From a candidate division KSB1 bacterium (GTDB lineage: Bacteria > Zhuqueibacterota > JdFR-76 > DREG01): a stretch of DNA of 60,817 nucleotides. The translations under genes and the position numbers were made by a program. Location: NCBI GenBank assembly GCA_022566355.1, contig JADFJB010000009.1, forward strand, positions 1 to 60,817, given 5' to 3'. The first letter of the stretch is position 1. Every line of letters begins with the position of its first letter. This document shows, piece after piece, positions 9,861 through 17,784 of this stretch. Below the pieces are notes generated by a model. It made no database searches and had not been told where the DNA came from. It saw only the letters and a program-made list of their open reading frames with translations.

Positions 9861-10202
9861 TTAATTTAGGTCAAAAACTAATTTAATACCCATTTCAACT
9901 TTTTTTAGAAAAGCTTTGTTTATTGACCCAACACATTTAGTTAAAAATGATTTATCTAAGGTGATAATCTGCGAAATGTTGACCACGGATGTTTTAGATA
10001 AATTTGAATCATTTTTATGTAAAAGTACATTCCCAGGAGCTTCTGCTAATTTCAAATTAGAACTAATAATCACACAGATTATTGTATTTATTTTACTTCT
10101 TGTAAAAGAATCTGATTGGATTATTAAGACTGGTCTTCTATAGCCAGGTTCCGAAGCAACTGAACTTGGAAGTGATGCCCACCATATTTCACCCCTGACC
10201 AT
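9861..10202 (-). CDS. MazF/PemK-family mRNA interferase toxin
   Basis: The 113-residue product has the MazF-fold landmarks: the N-terminal GEIWWASL strand, the RRPVLIIQSDSF block (the conserved RP-VLIVQ region with the catalytic Arg), the VIISSNLK segment with Ser, and the VVNISQIITLDKSFL region. MazF toxins are sequence-specific endoribonucleases that halt translation when the antitoxin is lost. Its ATG overlaps the antitoxin stop by one base (TAATG), the usual coupled arrangement. Downstream towards 9709 there is no further gene. The pair is an accessory insertion between the DUF5916 gene and the aromatic operon. Confidence 0.88.
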   Translation of the reverse strand: MVRGEIWWASLPSSVASEPGYRRPVLIIQSDSFTRSKINTIICVIISSNLKLAEAPGNVLLHKNDSNLSKTSVVNISQIITLDKSFLTKCVGSINKAFLKKVEMGIKLVFDLN

Positions 10203-10438
10203 TACCAGTTTTCCTTTTCAAGGGTCTTAACTTGCAACCGGGTTATAATGGGGTCCATATCACTTGATTCTTTTGTGTATACTTGATTTAATTTTTCAGT
10301 AATATCAGCAGGGATGTGGTTTTCTAAATATTCTTGAATAGCACGACAAAACAAGCTACTCCTTGAGATGCCAAGTTTTTTGGCGGTTTCTTCAGCTTTT
10401 TTGAATAATGCATCTGAAATTGATATCGCAGTTTTCAT
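10202..10438 (-). CDS. Ribbon-helix-helix antitoxin of the MazF pair
   Basis: The 78-residue product begins with a ribbon-helix-helix fold: strand TAISISDALFKKAEETAKK, then GISRSSLFCRAIQEYLEN. This is the MazE/CopG-like DNA-binding half. The C-terminal tail (ITEKLNQVYTKESSDMDPI) would wrap the toxin. It would neutralise the MazF-type toxin and repress its own promoter. The start ATG lies 6 bases after a consensus -10 box, so the mRNA is probably leaderless. Confidence 0.85.
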   Translation of the reverse strand: MKTAISISDALFKKAEETAKKLGISRSSLFCRAIQEYLENHIPADITEKLNQVYTKESSDMDPIITRLQVKTLEKENW

Positions 10439-10473: not shown

Positions 10474-10601
10474 GGAAATTCAAAAAAAGATCATATACGT
10501 GGGTAGTATATGAAGACTGTAGATTTTGGAGATATACAATGATGTTTGATATTTAATAATTCTTTCGCGTAGATTTTGTTTTAATTTATCCAATGATTAT
10601 C

Positions 10602-10737
10602 TAGTGTTTGATCGAAAACTCAACAACTAGTGTCATTCCGGTAATCTTTTGAGCCGGAATCTAATCATTCCAAGCATTTAGATTCACGCTAAAAGCATGC
10701 GGGAATGACAGAATGGGTGCTTTTCGTTCAGACACTA
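10602..10737. mobile_element. MITE-like element with 17-bp terminal inverted repeats
   Basis: The ends are inverted copies, TAGTGTTTGATCGAAAA at 10602-10618 and the complement of TAGTGTCTGAACGAAAA at 10721-10737 (15 of 17 match). Inside them lies a second palindromic part running from GTCATTCC (about 10632) to GGAATGAC (about 10702-10709). At 136 bases with no coding capacity it has the build of a miniature inverted-repeat element. A partial relative sits at 49151-49210. Confidence 0.65.
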
Positions 10738-10767
10738 TCTAACCATTAATATTCAAAAAAAATATGC

Positions 10768-10795
10768 TTGCTTTTAATCTGATTGTTCATATATT
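10768..10795 (+). promoter_or_regulatory. Candidate promoter of the aromatic amino acid operon
   Basis: A TTGCTT box (10768-10773) and TATATT (10790-10795) are separated by 16 bases. Transcription would start near 10802, about 30 bases before the leader peptide start codon. The boxes are acceptable rather than perfect; the position relative to the leader peptide is the main support. Confidence 0.5.
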
Positions 10796-10833
10796 ACACT
10801 AAATTCACAATCATCAACAACATATAAAAAACC

Positions 10834-10890
10834 ATGAAAAATTTTACTGCTAATTCCTCCTTTTATTATTTTTATTTTAGGTTTCCCTGA
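10834..10890 (+). CDS. Phe/Tyr-rich leader peptide of the aromatic operon
   Basis: An 18-codon open frame reads MKNFTANSSFYYFYFRFP and stops with TGA at 10888-10890. Eight of 18 residues are Phe (5) or Tyr (3), seven of them between codons 10 and 17. This is the design of ribosome-stalling leader peptides such as E. coli pheL, which also ends in FP. Codons 10-17 lie directly ahead of the antiterminator strand at 10889-10897. The operon downstream makes Phe and Tyr. No clear Shine-Dalgarno sequence precedes the ATG. Too short to be found by ordinary gene callers; the composition and the adjoining RNA switch are the evidence. Confidence 0.8.
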   Translation: MKNFTANSSFYYFYFRFP

Positions 10891-10958
10891 TTGGGAGTAG
10901 ATTAGTGGTTTATTTATTATAAGAACCCTCCCAATCGATTTCGTTGGGAGGGTTTTTT
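10889..10958 (+). promoter_or_regulatory. Transcription attenuator (antiterminator and terminator) of the aro/phe/tyr operon
   Basis: The terminator is an 11-bp perfect stem (arms 10924-10934 and 10944-10954, loop of 9) followed by a T run to 10958. GATTGGGAG at 10889-10897 is exactly complementary to CTCCCAATC at 10928-10936, the left terminator arm, so the two pairings exclude each other. A ribosome stalled on the Phe/Tyr codons leaves 10889-10897 free and gives the antiterminator. A ribosome that reaches the stop codon covers that strand and lets the terminator form. The chorismate mutase gene begins 22 bases after the T run. Confidence 0.85.
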
Positions 10959-10980: not shown

Positions 10981-11349
10981 ATGAATGAAAATCTAATTGT
11001 TCGGGGCGTTCGTGGCGCCAATTGTGTGAGGGAGAATACCACCGCGTGCATCCATGATTCCACACGGGAGTTGCTGCAGGCGATGTTGAAAGCCAACGAG
11101 GTCGAAATGGATAGCATCGTCTCTCTCTTTTTTACCCTAACGGCAGATTTGAATGCGGCTTTCCCTGCGGAAGCAGCCAGAAGGTTAGGTTTGAAATTTA
11201 CCCCCCTGCTTTGCACCCAAGAGATTGATGTACCAGGAAGCTTAGCGAAGGTGGTTCGAATTTTAATGCTGATCAATACAAATAAATCCCTGGAAGACAT
11301 TAACCATGTCTTTTTAGGAGAGGCCAAGGTTTTACGGGATGATTTATAA
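10981..11349 (+). CDS. aroH: Chorismate mutase, AroH type
   Basis: Converts chorismate to prephenate, the branch to Phe and Tyr. The 122-residue monofunctional enzyme resembles the Bacillus AroH fold: VRGVRGANCVREN at the N-terminus (active-site Arg), LFFTLTADLNAAFPAEAAR in the middle, and VRILMLINTNKSLEDINHVF and the VLRDDL ending. This is not the all-helical AroQ type. First structural gene after the attenuator; its end overlaps by a few bases with an alternative upstream start of the DAHP synthase. No clear Shine-Dalgarno sequence was seen before the ATG. Confidence 0.93.
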   Translation: MNENLIVRGVRGANCVRENTTACIHDSTRELLQAMLKANEVEMDSIVSLFFTLTADLNAAFPAEAARRLGLKFTPLLCTQEIDVPGSLAKVVRILMLINTNKSLEDINHVFLGEAKVLRDDL

Positions 11350-11362
11350 TTTAGGAGGTAAA

Positions 11363-12397
11363 ATGATCGTTGTGATTAAGAATGAAGAAGGAGACAAAGT
11401 CGTCTCATCTGTAGTTGAACAGATCAAAAAAATGGGATTTCAGGCCCATATTTCCAGGGGCACGGAAAAAACCACCATCGGTGTGATTGGCGATGACCGT
11501 TATATAGCGAAAGACAAAATTGCTGCCCTGGATGGTGTCGAAGCCGTTATTCCGGTATTGAAACCCTTCAAATTAACCTCGCGGGAATTTCAACCGGATA
11601 CGACTTGCATAAAAATTGATGATGTGGTTTTTGGCGAAGAGTTTGTGACGATTGCAGGCCCTTGCTCGGTTGAGTCCAGGGAGCAAATCCTCGAGTGTGC
11701 CCATTTCTTGAAAGAGCAAGGTGTAAATGTACTGCGCGGCGGTGCCTTTAAACCGCGAACTTCGCCATACAGCTTCCAGGGTTTGGGAGAGCAGGCATTG
11801 GAGCTTTTGGCGCAAGCTAAAGAAATCACTAAACTTCCATTGTGTACTGAGGTATTAGCGCCCCAGGATGTGGGACTTATTGCTAAATATGTTGATATTA
11901 TTCAGATCGGTGCTCGGAATATGCAGAACTTTCCTTTGCTGCGTGCGGTGGGACAATGTGAAAGACCAGTTTTATTAAAACGAGGAATGATGTCAACCAT
12001 AGAAGAATTTCTTCTTGCAGCAGAATACATTATGAATGAGGGCAATAAACAAGTTATCTTGTGTGAACGTGGTATTCGCACGTTTGAAAATTATACCAGG
12101 AATACTTTGGACCTGGGGGCTGTGGCATTGATTAAGGAATTGTCCCATTTACCCATTATCGTCGATCCCAGCCACGCAACCGGTAAACGTTCCCTGGTAG
12201 CGCCACTGTCAAAAGCAGCGTTGGCCTTAGGTGCGGACGGTGTGATGGTGGAAGTTCATCCGAATCCGGCGGAGGCGTTGTCGGACGGCGCCCAGAGCTT
12301 GCACTTCGAGGAATTCGAAACCATGATGAATGAATTGAAGACAATCTCTCGTGCGCTGAAGAACGAAGAAGTGGCAAAAGAGAAATTCGCAGTATGA
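11363..12397 (+). CDS. aroF: 3-deoxy-7-phosphoheptulonate (DAHP) synthase, type I-beta with N-terminal regulatory domain
   Basis: First step of the shikimate pathway: PEP plus erythrose-4-phosphate to DAHP. I chose the ATG at 11363 because AGGAGGT lies at 11353-11359; a longer frame begins at 11339 but lacks such a site. The 344-residue product has an N-terminal ferredoxin-like domain of about 70 residues (MIVVIKNEEGDKVVSSVVEQ), as in Thermotoga-type enzymes where it mediates feedback inhibition. The TIM barrel shows IAGPCSVESREQI, GGAFKPRTSPYSFQGLG, KRGMMSTIEEFL, CERGIRTFENYTRNTLD and IVDPSHATGKRSLV, including the metal and PEP ligands. Followed at 10 bases by pheA. Confidence 0.96.
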   Translation: MIVVIKNEEGDKVVSSVVEQIKKMGFQAHISRGTEKTTIGVIGDDRYIAKDKIAALDGVEAVIPVLKPFKLTSREFQPDTTCIKIDDVVFGEEFVTIAGPCSVESREQILECAHFLKEQGVNVLRGGAFKPRTSPYSFQGLGEQALELLAQAKEITKLPLCTEVLAPQDVGLIAKYVDIIQIGARNMQNFPLLRAVGQCERPVLLKRGMMSTIEEFLLAAEYIMNEGNKQVILCERGIRTFENYTRNTLDLGAVALIKELSHLPIIVDPSHATGKRSLVAPLSKAALALGADGVMVEVHPNPAEALSDGAQSLHFEEFETMMNELKTISRALKNEEVAKEKFAV

Positions 12398-12407
12398 GGA
12401 GAAATTT

Positions 12408-13253
12408 TTGACCAACCAATCACAATCCTATCGTGCTGCGTACCAGGGTATTGACGGCGCTTACAGCCAGGAAGCTATCCACCAGTATTTCAAAAAACAA
12501 GTGCATACCATAGGCTGCTCAACTTTCGAAGAGGTCGTAAGAACCGTTGAATCCGGGAAAGCGGAATATGCTTTTATGCCGGCTGAAAATTCAATAGCCG
12601 GAACGATTGTTCAAACATTTGATTTATTGCTGGAATCAACATTAAGTATCATCGGGGAATTTTATCTCCCGATTCACCATAATTTGATGGCGTTGCCGGA
12701 AACCCATTTAAAAGATATCGAATCGGTTTATTCTCATCCACAAGCGCTGGCCCAATGTGCAGAATCCATCAAGAGATTTGGCTTAAAGCCCATTGTCGAT
12801 TGGGATACCGCAGGAAGCGCAAAGCGAATTCGAGAAGAAAGCTTACAAAAGGCGGCGGCAATCGCCGGTAATTATGCGGCCGAGGTGTATGAACTTCAGC
12901 TATTGGCTTCGAATATTGAAGATATAGATCACAATACAACCCGGTTTTTTATTTTAAGCAAGCAAACTTCCAAACGCAGCAAACGCAATAAAACCTCAAT
13001 CCTTTTTACTACACGCCATGCACCAGGTGCCTTGGTCGCATCGATGAAGGAGTTTTCCGATCGCAAGATCAATTTAACTAAAATCGAGTCCCGGCCGGAT
13101 CGCAAGCATCCCTGGCACTATATCTTCTATCTTGATTTTGAAGGCCATATTGAAGATCCGTCTGTCGAAAAAGCCATGCTTAATATCCTCAAACGTGCTC
13201 AGATGGTCAAGATACTCGGCAGCTATCCTTGTGGAGATCAGCATGAAGGCTGA
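12408..13253 (+). CDS. pheA: Prephenate dehydratase with ACT domain
   Basis: Turns prephenate into phenylpyruvate, the committed step to Phe. The start is TTG at 12408 with GAGGAGA at 12396-12402 ahead of it. The 281-residue product has the dehydratase domain (about 1-185): AYQGIDGAYSQEA, FMPAENSIAGTI, YSHPQALAQC, DTAGSAKRI, and the catalytic NTTRFFILSK (TRF motif). The ACT domain (about 198-270) carries APGAL and IESRPDRKHPWHY, the Phe-binding GAL and ESRP motifs, so feedback inhibition by Phe is expected. It is monofunctional, lacking the mutase domain of the proteobacterial P-protein, which is supplied by AroH. The end overlaps tyrA by 11 bases. Confidence 0.96.
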   Translation: MTNQSQSYRAAYQGIDGAYSQEAIHQYFKKQVHTIGCSTFEEVVRTVESGKAEYAFMPAENSIAGTIVQTFDLLLESTLSIIGEFYLPIHHNLMALPETHLKDIESVYSHPQALAQCAESIKRFGLKPIVDWDTAGSAKRIREESLQKAAAIAGNYAAEVYELQLLASNIEDIDHNTTRFFILSKQTSKRSKRNKTSILFTTRHAPGALVASMKEFSDRKINLTKIESRPDRKHPWHYIFYLDFEGHIEDPSVEKAMLNILKRAQMVKILGSYPCGDQHEG

Positions 13254-14082
13254 TGAAAAAACAGCTGTTCTTATCGGTTTGGGACAGATCGGAGGATCGT
13301 TGGCATTAGCGCTTAAAAAAGCCGGTTATTTCAAAACGGTTGGCGGATTTGATGTTAATTCCGACAGATTACAAAAGGCTGGCGATTTCCTGGATTGCAT
13401 GTATTCGAATTTGGATGAGGCCTTATCTGCCGGTGATTTGATTATCCTGGCAGCGCCGGTTTTGGAAAATATCCTAATCCTGGGAAAGGGCTTTCAAACC
13501 TATCCGGATAAACTGTACACTGATGTCGGAAGTACCAAAACTCAAATGATGGAAGAGAGCCGCAAAAAACCCGGAATACGGTTTATTGGCGGGCATCCGT
13601 TTTCAGGCACGGAGAAGGAAGGGGATTCCGGCTGGGACTCAAACCTGTTTTCCGGGAAACCCTATTTCTGGGTTCAGGAGAATAGCCAATCTATTGATGA
13701 CCAGAGTTGCATCATCAATATGATTAAAGCAATCGGGGCTATTCCAAAAGCAATCGATCCCGAAGAACATGACCGGGCGCTAGCTTTAACCAGCCATCTA
13801 CCCATATTGATTTCCCTGGGTTTGGCCGGAATGCTCGATGAAGATGTTTACAGTTCGGATTTTATTGGCAGCGGATTCCTTTCCACGACCCGCATAGCTG
13901 GCGGATCTGCCGAGTTAGGCAGGGATATTTTGATCAGCAATCGCGAGGCAGTTTTGAATGAAATGACACGGTTTAATGAGAATCTTGCTAAATTGGTTGA
14001 AAGTCTGGAAAATTCTAACGAAAATCAACTGTTGGAACTCATGGTTAAATTTAAGCAAAGATATTCAGCAATCTCTCATTAA
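13243..14082 (+). CDS. tyrA: Prephenate/arogenate dehydrogenase
   Basis: NAD(P)-dependent oxidative decarboxylation of prephenate or arogenate on the way to Tyr. I chose the ATG at 13243 because a GGAG site (13233-13236) precedes it and the Rossmann motif begins at once (AVLIGLGQIGGSLALALKKAGY). A longer open frame upstream would run inside pheA. The 279-residue product shows the conserved GGHPFSGTEKEG active-site block, ALTSHLPILISLGLAG with the catalytic His, and the C-terminal helical dimer domain. There is no ACT domain, so control by Tyr may rest on transcription. The start codon overlaps the pheA end, indicating coupled translation. Confidence 0.94.
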   Translation: MKADEKTAVLIGLGQIGGSLALALKKAGYFKTVGGFDVNSDRLQKAGDFLDCMYSNLDEALSAGDLIILAAPVLENILILGKGFQTYPDKLYTDVGSTKTQMMEESRKKPGIRFIGGHPFSGTEKEGDSGWDSNLFSGKPYFWVQENSQSIDDQSCIINMIKAIGAIPKAIDPEEHDRALALTSHLPILISLGLAGMLDEDVYSSDFIGSGFLSTTRIAGGSAELGRDILISNREAVLNEMTRFNENLAKLVESLENSNENQLLELMVKFKQRYSAISH

Positions 14083-14102: not shown

Positions 14103-15383
14103 ATGATTAAGATCAAATCGCCAAATACAATATCCGGTAAAATTTTTGTTCCGGGTGATAAATCCATCTCGCACCGGGGTTTGATTCTGGCGTCGATGGC
14201 TGAGGGGATATCTGAAATTTATGGTCTGTCATCGGGGAATGATGTGCAAACTACCCAAAGTCTCATGAAAAAATTAGGCGTCGAAATAATTCAGATGGAT
14301 GAAGACCTGATGGTTATTACTAGCAGGGGATGGGCAGGTCTGAAAGCATCCGATGCTATTCTTGACTGCGAAAATTCAGGTACATCCGCCCGGCTTTTGA
14401 CCGCCATATTAGCCGGTCATAGCTTTTCATCTGTGATCGACGGGGATGAATCCTTGCGCCAACGCCCGATGGGACGGGTTGTGGAGCCATTGAGATTGAT
14501 GGGCGCTGATATTACCAGTCAGAACTCGAATGATCTTCTGCCATTGGAAATTCAAGGAAAACAATTACACGGTATCGATTATCTAATGCCGATTGCGAGT
14601 GCGCAGGTGAAATCGGCAATTCTTCTTGCCGGATTGAATGCCGAAGGTGAAACAAGTGTAACAGAACCATTCCCAAGCCGGGATCACACCGAACGATTTT
14701 TCTCCTGGCTGAATTTGCCGTTGGAACGGAATCGACTAACCTATAAAATTTCACCATCGAAAGTGCCGGCTTTTTCACTTAAAATTCCGGGTGATTTTTC
14801 ATCGGCGGCTTATTTTGTAGCGCTAGGACTCATTCACCCGAATGCAGAAATTACTATTAGCGATGTAAATCTCAATCCCACACGAGCGGCTTTATTGGAT
14901 GTCCTGCGACGCATGGGTGGGTATATCAGTCTCACAGTCCTGGAAGATAAACCGGAATTGGTGGGGGAAATTACGGTTCGATCATCCGAATTAAAAAATA
15001 CCACCGTTGATGTTTCGGAAATTCCGGCTATGATCGATGAACTGCCATTGTTGGCCGTGGTTGCAACCCAGGCTGAAGGCACATTAAAGCTTACCGGGGC
15101 ACAAGAACTCCGGGTCAAAGAATCGGATCGGATTAGCGCTCTTGTGCCGCAGCTTCGGAAAATGGGAGCCAATATAGATGAGTTGCCGGACGGTTTTATT
15201 GTTGAAGGGTTAACGCCATTAAAAGGAGCGAAACTGGAAGCCTGTAAAGATCATCGCATCGCGATGTCCCTGGCTATAGCCGCTACAATTGCAGAAGGGA
15301 AATCGAAACTTGCTGGTGATGAGTGGGTAAAAATTTCCTTCCCGGACTTTTTTAAAATCCTGAAACAAATTGGCAATAAATGA
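14103..15383 (+). CDS. aroA: 3-phosphoshikimate 1-carboxyvinyltransferase (EPSP synthase)
   Basis: Joins shikimate-3-phosphate and PEP to form EPSP. The ATG at 14103 was preferred over a TTG at 14091, since the protein then begins MIKIKSPNTISGKIFVPGDKSISHR as in homologues; the leading part is quoted only to GDKSISHR. Other landmarks in the 426-residue product: NSGTSARLL, RQRPMGRVVEPL, SAQVKSAILLAGL, PGDFSSAAYF, IDELPLLAVVA, LRVKESDRI and KDHRIAMSLAIA. All substrate-binding blocks are present. The gene follows tyrA at 20 bases. Shikimate kinase (aroK) and aroB/aroD genes are not in the window. Confidence 0.96.
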   Translation: MIKIKSPNTISGKIFVPGDKSISHRGLILASMAEGISEIYGLSSGNDVQTTQSLMKKLGVEIIQMDEDLMVITSRGWAGLKASDAILDCENSGTSARLLTAILAGHSFSSVIDGDESLRQRPMGRVVEPLRLMGADITSQNSNDLLPLEIQGKQLHGIDYLMPIASAQVKSAILLAGLNAEGETSVTEPFPSRDHTERFFSWLNLPLERNRLTYKISPSKVPAFSLKIPGDFSSAAYFVALGLIHPNAEITISDVNLNPTRAALLDVLRRMGGYISLTVLEDKPELVGEITVRSSELKNTTVDVSEIPAMIDELPLLAVVATQAEGTLKLTGAQELRVKESDRISALVPQLRKMGANIDELPDGFIVEGLTPLKGAKLEACKDHRIAMSLAIAATIAEGKSKLAGDEWVKISFPDFFKILKQIGNK

Positions 15384-15581: not shown

Positions 15582-16424
15582 ATGAAACATCTTGGCCTCC
15601 TGGGATACCCGCTTTCGCACAGCCACTCACCGGCAATGATAAACCGTTTGGCAAAGGCTAAAAATTGGGATTGCAGCTATCAGCCATATTCTATTGAACC
15701 GGAATATTTAAAAGAATTTATTTCTGAAGTTCGTCATCGGCCAATTTCGGGATTTAATGTGACGATTCCCCACAAACAAACCATCCTTTCTTTTTGCGAC
15801 GAATTTTCTCCGGAGGTGCAAGCGATTCGAGCCGTCAATACGATCTGTAACCACAATGGAAAATTAATCGCACACAACACCGATGTCTTTGGTTTTAACT
15901 ATGGATTGGAGCAACTGACAAAGGAGTTCACCTCGATCAAAAGAGCGGTACTATTAGGCGCGGGTGGGGCTGCCCGTGCCGCTGCTTTCGCCCTGGCAAA
16001 AATGGGGTGCAATAAGTTAATTATCGCTTCTCGAACAGATCATCGAAAGATCGAATGGCAAAGAGATTTTGTCGCAATCTTTTCCATGACAAACATTTCA
16101 TTTTGTCCGTTGGATCAAGCCGAATTAGAAAAACATGTCCAGGATGCCAATATGGTTGTACAAACGACACCCGTCGGCATGTTTCCGGAAGAAGATGAAG
16201 CAGTGTCTTTTCCATTTCATGTGCTAACTCAAGATCAATTGGTATTTGATTTGATTTATAATCCGCCGAAAACAAAATTTCTTTACCAGGCAGAAAAACA
16301 AGGCACAAAGATTCAAAATGGATTGACTATGCTGGCTGCGCAAGCGGCAAAGTCATTGGAAATTTGGGGATTTGAAGTTGAGGTGGAGGAAGTTGTAGAA
16401 TCCTTAGAAAAGGTACTTAACTAA
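15582..16424 (+). CDS. aroE: Shikimate dehydrogenase
   Basis: NADP-dependent reduction of 3-dehydroshikimate to shikimate. The 280-residue product has the substrate-binding start GLLGYPLSHSHSPAMINRL, the catalytic Lys in NVTIPHKQTI, the NTDVFGFNYGL block with the catalytic Asp, the nucleotide loop LLGAGGAARAAAFAL, and the C-terminal NGLTMLAAQAAKSLEIWG. It is the fifth pathway enzyme in this cluster. It is separated from aroA by a repeat-filled gap of about 200 bases and from aroC by about 230, so it may depend on read-through or on its own promoter. Confidence 0.96.
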   Translation: MKHLGLLGYPLSHSHSPAMINRLAKAKNWDCSYQPYSIEPEYLKEFISEVRHRPISGFNVTIPHKQTILSFCDEFSPEVQAIRAVNTICNHNGKLIAHNTDVFGFNYGLEQLTKEFTSIKRAVLLGAGGAARAAAFALAKMGCNKLIIASRTDHRKIEWQRDFVAIFSMTNISFCPLDQAELEKHVQDANMVVQTTPVGMFPEEDEAVSFPFHVLTQDQLVFDLIYNPPKTKFLYQAEKQGTKIQNGLTMLAAQAAKSLEIWGFEVEVEEVVESLEKVLN

Positions 16425-16653: not shown

Positions 16654-17784
16654 ATGTTAACTTACCACACTGCAGGCCATTCGCATGGAGAACTTCTTAT
16701 CGGAATTTTACAGGGATTCCCTGCTCATGTTCCTATCGATGAAGAATTTATCAACAAAACTTTAGAGCGCCGGCAAGGCGGTTATGGCCGCAGTAAACGC
16801 ATGAGCATCGAAAAGGACAGGATTGAGTTTGTCGCTGGTGTTTGGAAAGGTGAAACAACCGGAGCGCCGATCGGCTTGCTCATAAAAAACAAAGCGAGCA
16901 AATCCCAGGATCAAGTTCGCCCACGCACTATTCCCAGGCCGGGTCACGCTGATTTGGCCGGGGCGTGGAAATATGGTTGGGAACATGACTTTAATCCGGT
17001 CATCGAACGTTCCAGCGCTCGTGAGACAGCCATGCGGGTGGCTATTGGTTCCATCTGCCAACTATTGTTAAAAGGATTTGGAATTGAACTCCTCGGCCAT
17101 GTTAAACAATTGGGATCCGTGTCCCCGGATATACCCGACCTCAACCTATCCCAAATGCGCAATCTTGTCGAAGTCTCGCCATTCTATTGCTGCGATCCAC
17201 AGGCTGACCAAAAGATGAAAGAGCTAATCGACAGCAAAACCGAAGAAGGCAACAGTCTCGGCGGCATTGTTGAAGTACTTGTAGAAAATGTCCCGCCTGG
17301 TTTGGGTGGGTTTAAGCATTTGGAGTTCCGCCTCGACGCGCAAATTGCCCAGGCATTGATGAGCATCCCTTCGGTTAAAGCGGTTGAAATTGGTGAGGGA
17401 TTGGCAGGGGCTGATAAACCCGGTAGTGAAGTTCATGATGAAATCAAAATACAAAATGGAAAAATTCAACGAAGCACGAATAATTCCGGCGGCATAGAAG
17501 GCGGTATGACCAATGGACAGCGAATCATTGTCCGCGCCTATCACAAGCCAATCCCGACGATGATTCGCGGCATAGCGAGTATTGATTTGCTTGACGGCTC
17601 GGCCACGAAAGCGCCCTACATTCGCTCAGATGTCGTAGTGATCCCGGCAGCATCGGTTGTTGCCGAAGCAATGGTTGCATTTATTCTAACCAAAGCGCTG
17701 CTGGACAAATTTGGTCACGATCATTTTGGCGACATTCGTGAAAATTTGCAAAAGTACCTGAAAAGAATTAAATACTATGGTTGA
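16654..17784 (+). CDS. aroC: Chorismate synthase
   Basis: Last step of the shikimate pathway: FMN-dependent elimination of phosphate from EPSP to give chorismate. The 376-residue product has the three classical signatures: the GHSHGELLIGILQGFPA start with the catalytic His and RRQGGYGRSKRM, then RPGHADLAGAWKYG and ERSSARETAMRVAIG in the middle, and GGIEGGMTNGQRIIVRAYHKPIPT near residue 290. Length and motifs are normal. Its product feeds both aroH in this operon and menF at 56.7 kb. A dispersed repeat begins right at its stop codon. Confidence 0.97.
   Translation: MLTYHTAGHSHGELLIGILQGFPAHVPIDEEFINKTLERRQGGYGRSKRMSIEKDRIEFVAGVWKGETTGAPIGLLIKNKASKSQDQVRPRTIPRPGHADLAGAWKYGWEHDFNPVIERSSARETAMRVAIGSICQLLLKGFGIELLGHVKQLGSVSPDIPDLNLSQMRNLVEVSPFYCCDPQADQKMKELIDSKTEEGNSLGGIVEVLVENVPPGLGGFKHLEFRLDAQIAQALMSIPSVKAVEIGEGLAGADKPGSEVHDEIKIQNGKIQRSTNNSGGIEGGMTNGQRIIVRAYHKPIPTMIRGIASIDLLDGSATKAPYIRSDVVVIPAASVVAEAMVAFILTKALLDKFGHDHFGDIRENLQKYLKRIKYYG

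Follow-up and report, generated by a model that had tools for sequence, protein, structure and literature searches.

A ribosome-mediated transcription attenuator very probably precedes the aromatic amino acid genes aroH-aroF of a candidate division KSB1 bacterium, where a short reading frame rich in phenylalanine (Phe) and tyrosine (Tyr) codons is followed by competing RNA strands and an intrinsic terminator. This interpretation had been proposed, from the sequence, in a preliminary description of the window (the whole analysed stretch of 60,817 nucleotides, contig JADFJB010000009.1) by analogy with pheL of Escherichia coli. It is supported by the conservation of the leaders, the co-variation of the strands, the preferential pairing of leaders with their own terminators, the match between leader codons and pathway and a predicted fold switch, and we consider attenuation very likely because of these combined observations. 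The attenuator is a well-supported case of a known type with a phylum-wide reach.

Leader reading frame and competing RNA strands

The following elements, all on the plus strand, were delimited in the window.

10834..10890, plus strand: leader peptide ORF MKNFTANSSFYYFYFRFP, 18 codons, including 5 Phe and 3 Tyr codons
10846..10860, plus strand: strand 1 (about CTGCTAATTCCTCC), within the ORF and 5' of the control codons, pairing with 10893-10909 in the MFE fold
10889..10897, plus strand: strand 2, GATTGGGAG, which overlaps the stop codon and forms the antiterminator's left arm
10924..10936, plus strand: strand 3, AACCCTCCCAATC, serving both as the antiterminator's right arm (10928-10936) and as the terminator's left arm (10924-10934)
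10944..10957, plus strand: strand 4, TTGGGAGGGTT, with the T run, forming the intrinsic terminator's right arm

The ORF extends from an ATG at 10834 to a TGA stop codon at 10888-10890 and has the length and the Phe and Tyr codons previously reported. Its end, formerly placed one base before strand 2, in fact overlaps this strand, the last two bases of the stop codon being the first two of strand 2. No Shine-Dalgarno sequence was found upstream of its ATG, and 9 of the 23 leaders checked showed a Shine-Dalgarno-like match. The full complementarity (9/9) between GATTGGGAG (10889-10897) and CTCCCAATC (10928-10936) was confirmed, as was the terminator, in which 10924-10934 and 10944-10954 form 11 Watson-Crick pairs ahead of a T run and which reaches 15 pairs over 10921-10957 when G-U pairs are counted. 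Taken alone, the 2:3 pairing is unremarkable (p of about 0.10 when the ORF tail and the spacer are dinucleotide-shuffled), because a CCCTCCC arm easily finds partners, and the weight of the argument therefore falls on the comparison with relatives. The whole RNA is predicted to fold into a much more stable structure than its shuffles (z = -5.6). Strand 1, which had been missed in the preliminary description, lies inside the ORF and pairs in the predicted fold with strand 2 and its 3' flank, which would complete a full set of alternative 1:2, 2:3 and 3:4 helices. An Rfam scan of the window gave no match: none of the amino acid leader families (among them those for Phe, Trp and His) reached its gathering score, and T-box did not match either.

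A possible promoter was located upstream of the ORF.

10768..10795, plus strand: weak candidate promoter TTGCTT-16-TATATT, with a predicted transcript start near 10800

The hexamers, spacing and position of this candidate are the same in the same-family relative G001; it is not evident in G002, G003 and G005 and was not recovered by a consensus promoter scan. Just 5' of it, at 10600-10741 (core 10630-10735), stands a repeat with inverted ends (AGTGTTTGATCGAAAA...TTTTCGTTCAGACACT and TGTCATTCC...GGGAATGACA), a MITE- or REP-like element that has 42 matches in the same genome, with at most 96% identity outside the window. At 9861-10438 on the minus strand, divergent from the aro operon, lie a PemK/MazF-like toxin gene and, upstream of it, a small gene that overlaps it by one base and probably encodes the antitoxin. 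Since these nearest genes are on the opposite strand, the terminator was rejected as the end of an upstream gene.

Proposed mechanism and extent of the controlled unit

In the proposed mechanism, RNA polymerase would start 5' of 10834 and a ribosome would follow on the leader ORF. When Phe-tRNA or Tyr-tRNA is short, the ribosome would stall at codons 10-14 (F Y Y F Y, 10861-10875), leaving strand 2 free to pair with strand 3 once the latter is made, so that no terminator would form and aroH-aroF-pheA-tyrA-aroA would be transcribed. When both are plentiful, the ribosome would reach codon 15 and the stop codon and cover strand 2, and the 3:4 terminator would then halt transcription before aroH. 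Where transcription starts, that the ORF is translated and that the unit responds to Phe and Tyr are our inferences.

The geometry required by this scheme was modelled by folding with a ribosome mask that reaches from 15 bases 5' to 14 bases 3' of the start of the A-site codon, a footprint assumed from E. coli. For a transcript cut at the end of strand 3, the 2:3 helix is the most stable fold with the ribosome at codons 10-14, and its pairs are absent with the ribosome at codon 15, 17 or the stop codon; in the fold model, a stall at the control codons is thus predicted to free strand 2, which a ribosome at the stop codon would cover. Once strand 4 is made, the terminator (-19.2 kcal/mol) is more stable than the 2:3 fold (-14.4 kcal/mol) and the decision would therefore have to be kinetic, as it is in the trp system. 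With no ribosome, the cut transcript favours 2:3, which means that the untranslated state is not clearly off, and the finished transcript favours 1:2 plus the terminator.

The genes downstream of the leader are as follows.

10981..11349, plus strand: aroH-type chorismate mutase (CM_1, PF07736; E 2e-41), first controlled gene
11363..12397, plus strand: aroF, DAHP synthase I with a ferredoxin-like N-terminal domain (PF00793, PF18152)
12408..13253, plus strand: pheA, prephenate dehydratase with an ACT domain
13243..14082, plus strand: tyrA, prephenate dehydrogenase, overlapping pheA
14106..15383, plus strand: aroA, EPSP synthase
15582..16424, plus strand: aroE, shikimate dehydrogenase, after a 198-base gap
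16654..17784, plus strand: aroC, chorismate synthase, after a 229-base gap

From aroH to aroA, the genes overlap or are separated by at most 24 bases. This spacing fits the earlier proposal that the leader controls the whole aroH-aroF-pheA-tyrA-aroA block, and it is from the spacing that their control as one unit would follow. The membership of aroE is less sure because of the 198-base gap that precedes it here, yet it is directly 3' of aroA in G002 and G005, with aroC close behind it. The gaps of about 200 bases before aroE and aroC showed no terminator. Reinitiation from the leader to aroH was considered and rejected, their distance being 90 bases.

Conservation of the leader and compensatory changes within the order

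AroH was found in the same-order relatives G001, G002 and G005. In G003, the orthologous aroF has no adjoining AroH and is still preceded by the leader, and no aroF of the window's kind was found in G004 and G006. Each of the four order relatives whose aroF is orthologous has a Phe/Tyr-rich leader at the same place: MISHNSNTPNSFFFSYYFWFQ in G001, MDRIEFVNFSFYYFYFYP in G002, MTISRLRLIDFYVGFYFYYFP in G003 and MKTLSVANYFSNFGGNFYVYFYFP in G005, with C-terminal parts ...SFFFSYYFWFQ, ...FSFYYFYFYP, ...DFYVGFYFYYFP and ...NFYVYFYFP, respectively. In each of them the short ORF ends just 5' of a strand that is complementary to the left terminator arm. The base located 5' of the GGGAG core in strand 2, the base pairing with it in strand 3 and the corresponding one in strand 4 are T/A/T in the window and in G001, C/G/C in G002, A/T/G in G003 and A/T/A in G005. 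On this alignment, strands 2, 3 and 4 vary together, with both pairings kept through the changes. The comparison that the preliminary description had proposed as a check thus yields kept Phe/Tyr codons and compensatory changes in these four relatives and, as described below, in about half of the aroF loci of the phylum.

Survey of aroF loci across the phylum

The survey covered 61 loci, the window and 60 further loci encoding aroF (DAHP synthase). A locus was called positive when a frame with at least 6 Phe, Tyr or Trp in 14 codons had its stop 10-60 bases 5' of a terminator, and 1.15 Mb of sequence from the same loci served as control. A Phe/Tyr/Trp leader was found upstream of aroF in 32 of the 61 loci. 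Leaders with Phe and Tyr only account for 31 of the 61, against none in the control. The same test gave five Phe/Tyr/Trp matches in the control, four of which represent the leader of a single genus (HHWFWYWYY, HQWFWCWYY) and are probably true leaders, because a chorismate mutase operon containing trpB follows them. In genus g9 (L052, L057, L068), a Trp/Phe/Tyr leader (HHWFWYWYYHISGG and variants) precedes a chorismate mutase-like gene, trpB and then aroF. Other residue groups were rarer upstream of the same loci (Lys/Asn 3, Ile/Met 5, Leu/Ile 18), the Leu/Ile matches being, by inference, mostly the same stretches in other frames. About half of the aroF loci of the phylum were not called positive; some of these are second aroF copies and some are weak or truncated.

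The pairing between strands also favoured partners from the same locus. The strand-2 region forms a more stable duplex with its own strand 3 (mean -17.9 kcal/mol) than with swapped partners (-12.5 kcal/mol), a difference that none of 20,000 permutations equalled (z = -11, p = 5e-5). Outside the order of the window, the final codons of the ORF contain strand 2, and the longer antiterminator includes a second helix, exemplified in L064 by GGGTGGG-A-GGTTTGC with GCAAACC-A-GCCCACCC. The gene adjoining the leader also differs, being an AroH-type chorismate mutase (PF07736) in the order of the window and, in other orders, a protein of approximately 90 residues whose sequence pattern, recognised by eye, resembles that of an AroQ-type (CM_2) chorismate mutase. 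The leader and aroF stay in place while the intervening enzyme switches family, from AroQ-like to AroH-type.

Leaders of the tryptophan and histidine pathways

Leaders of the same design were found in other pathways of this lineage. In the genome of the window, a Trp leader, MNNFKTYNSDNDSWWWYSKLCGICMS (SWWWY), with a terminator stands directly 5' of trpE (L181, G000:C109). Relatives from the same order carry WWW or WWWW leaders 5' of trpE and runs of His codons 5' of hisG, and His leaders with terminators were observed upstream of hisG at L183, L184, L187, L188 and L189. No leader was found before pheS, homoserine dehydrogenase or ilvD in the loci examined. Given the Trp leaders at trpE and the His leaders at hisG, the leader residue thus matches the pathway in three cases, which neither chance nor a non-ribosomal sensor would give. 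HisG, homoserine dehydrogenase and IlvD, which several relatives possess, were all without a match in the genome of the window (98.5% complete); the syntheses of His, Thr/Met and Ile/Val have likely been lost in it, with those of aromatic amino acids and Trp being kept.

Amino acids sensed and alternative explanations

Judging from its codons, the leader almost certainly senses Phe and probably Tyr. The earlier claim of dual sensing holds as far as codons of both amino acids are present, and sensing itself is deduced from them: as both occur in the stretch where a stall would be effective, both should be sensed. The alternative that best survives is that the attenuator works as proposed with Phe, or one of the two, as the effective signal, the other codons being passengers. 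It finds a parallel in AroR of Corynebacterium glutamicum, whose Phe-Tyr-Phe leader responds to Phe and not to Tyr (PMC11802643), but across 23 leaders the effective stretch contains Tyr codons as often as Phe codons (79 and 68, respectively) and L048 has 7 Tyr and no Phe there, and we regard this alternative as rather unlikely.

A metabolite- or protein-binding RNA switch (riboswitch, T-box or TRAP-like) using the same terminator is far less probable. A terminator with an antiterminator would suit any attenuator, but no Rfam family matches in the window, leaders of this design elsewhere in the lineage contain Trp codons at trp operons and His codons at his operons, and what is conserved is a Phe/Tyr reading frame with synonymous variation (125 TAT, 26 TAC, 123 TTT and 25 TTC in the leaders). 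That an A+T-rich stretch merely reads by chance as Phe/Tyr codons before an unrelated terminator, as the A+T-rich codons TTT and TAT and the unremarkable 2:3 pairing in the window might suggest, is contradicted by the relatives, by the empty Phe/Tyr control, by the swap test and by the persistence of leaders at 62-64% G+C (L064, L065, L085), and can be practically dismissed. Ribosome-mediated attenuation thus remains the preferred reading.

Wider distribution and comparison with known systems

A search for AroH in named genomes gave no match, and a search with the AroF alignment retrieved 80 loci (L096-L175), all from other phyla and none close to the window. About two dozen of these 80 loci have, upstream of aroF, a candidate Phe/Tyr/Trp-rich frame that is followed by a terminator; they come from records of Calditrichota, Deltaproteobacteria, Geobacteraceae, Chloroflexota, Acidobacteria, Bacillota and Planctomycetes. 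Phe/Tyr/Trp-rich aroF leaders across many phyla seem to be uncatalogued as a class. We tentatively suggest, at somewhat short of even confidence, that a dual Phe and Tyr (sometimes Trp) attenuator could be an old and widespread control of DAHP synthase operons, found throughout the phylum and with similar aroF leaders in other phyla, which persists when an unrelated enzyme takes the first position (AroH-type in place of AroQ-like) and whose codons track the operon content (Trp where trpB is in the operon). The leaders of this uncultured phylum indicate that leader-peptide attenuation, mostly known from proteobacteria and actinobacteria, is common there as a control of aromatic amino acid, Trp and His operons, and that a single leader would govern the entry of the pathway and both branches. 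The approximately 30 leaders form a comparative set in which control codons can be related to operon content, and in which an ancient origin can be weighed against repeated invention.

According to a statement of 2010, no leader peptides had been reported beyond Proteobacteria and Actinobacteria until the case of Bacillus hisS (PMC2965389). The preliminary description, which knew of none in a lineage of this kind, is borne out by the open-access literature, where we found no direct precedent for attenuation in such a lineage, although precedents outside the proteobacteria do exist. The trpL and aroR attenuators of C. glutamicum are among the nearest (PMC11802643, PMC4046766). The aroR leader likewise combines Phe and Tyr codons in the attenuation of a DAHP synthase operon; it differs in having only Phe-Tyr-Phe, in belonging to Actinobacteria and in sensing Phe alone (Neshat et al. 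2014 as cited in PMC11802643; PMC4046766). The uORFC-13-1 motif of Acholeplasma similarly places a predicted Phe-coding uORF and a terminator before aroF (PMC8632094), but it involves at least one Phe residue only, is solely predicted and has another lineage and structure. For Flavobacterium psychrophilum (Bacteroidota), from another phylum, PMC9723704 reports a conserved structured 5' element before pheA and proposes leader-peptide attenuation for amino acid operons, with transcriptome support. The pheL-pheA, trpL and hisL systems of E. coli share with the present one a short ORF rich in codons of the product, alternative overlapping hairpins and a U-run terminator before the first gene. Compared with pheL-pheA, the leader described here has many Tyr codons, a different sequence and no Rfam model match, and a single leader would control the DAHP synthase entry, the Phe and Tyr branches and aroA.
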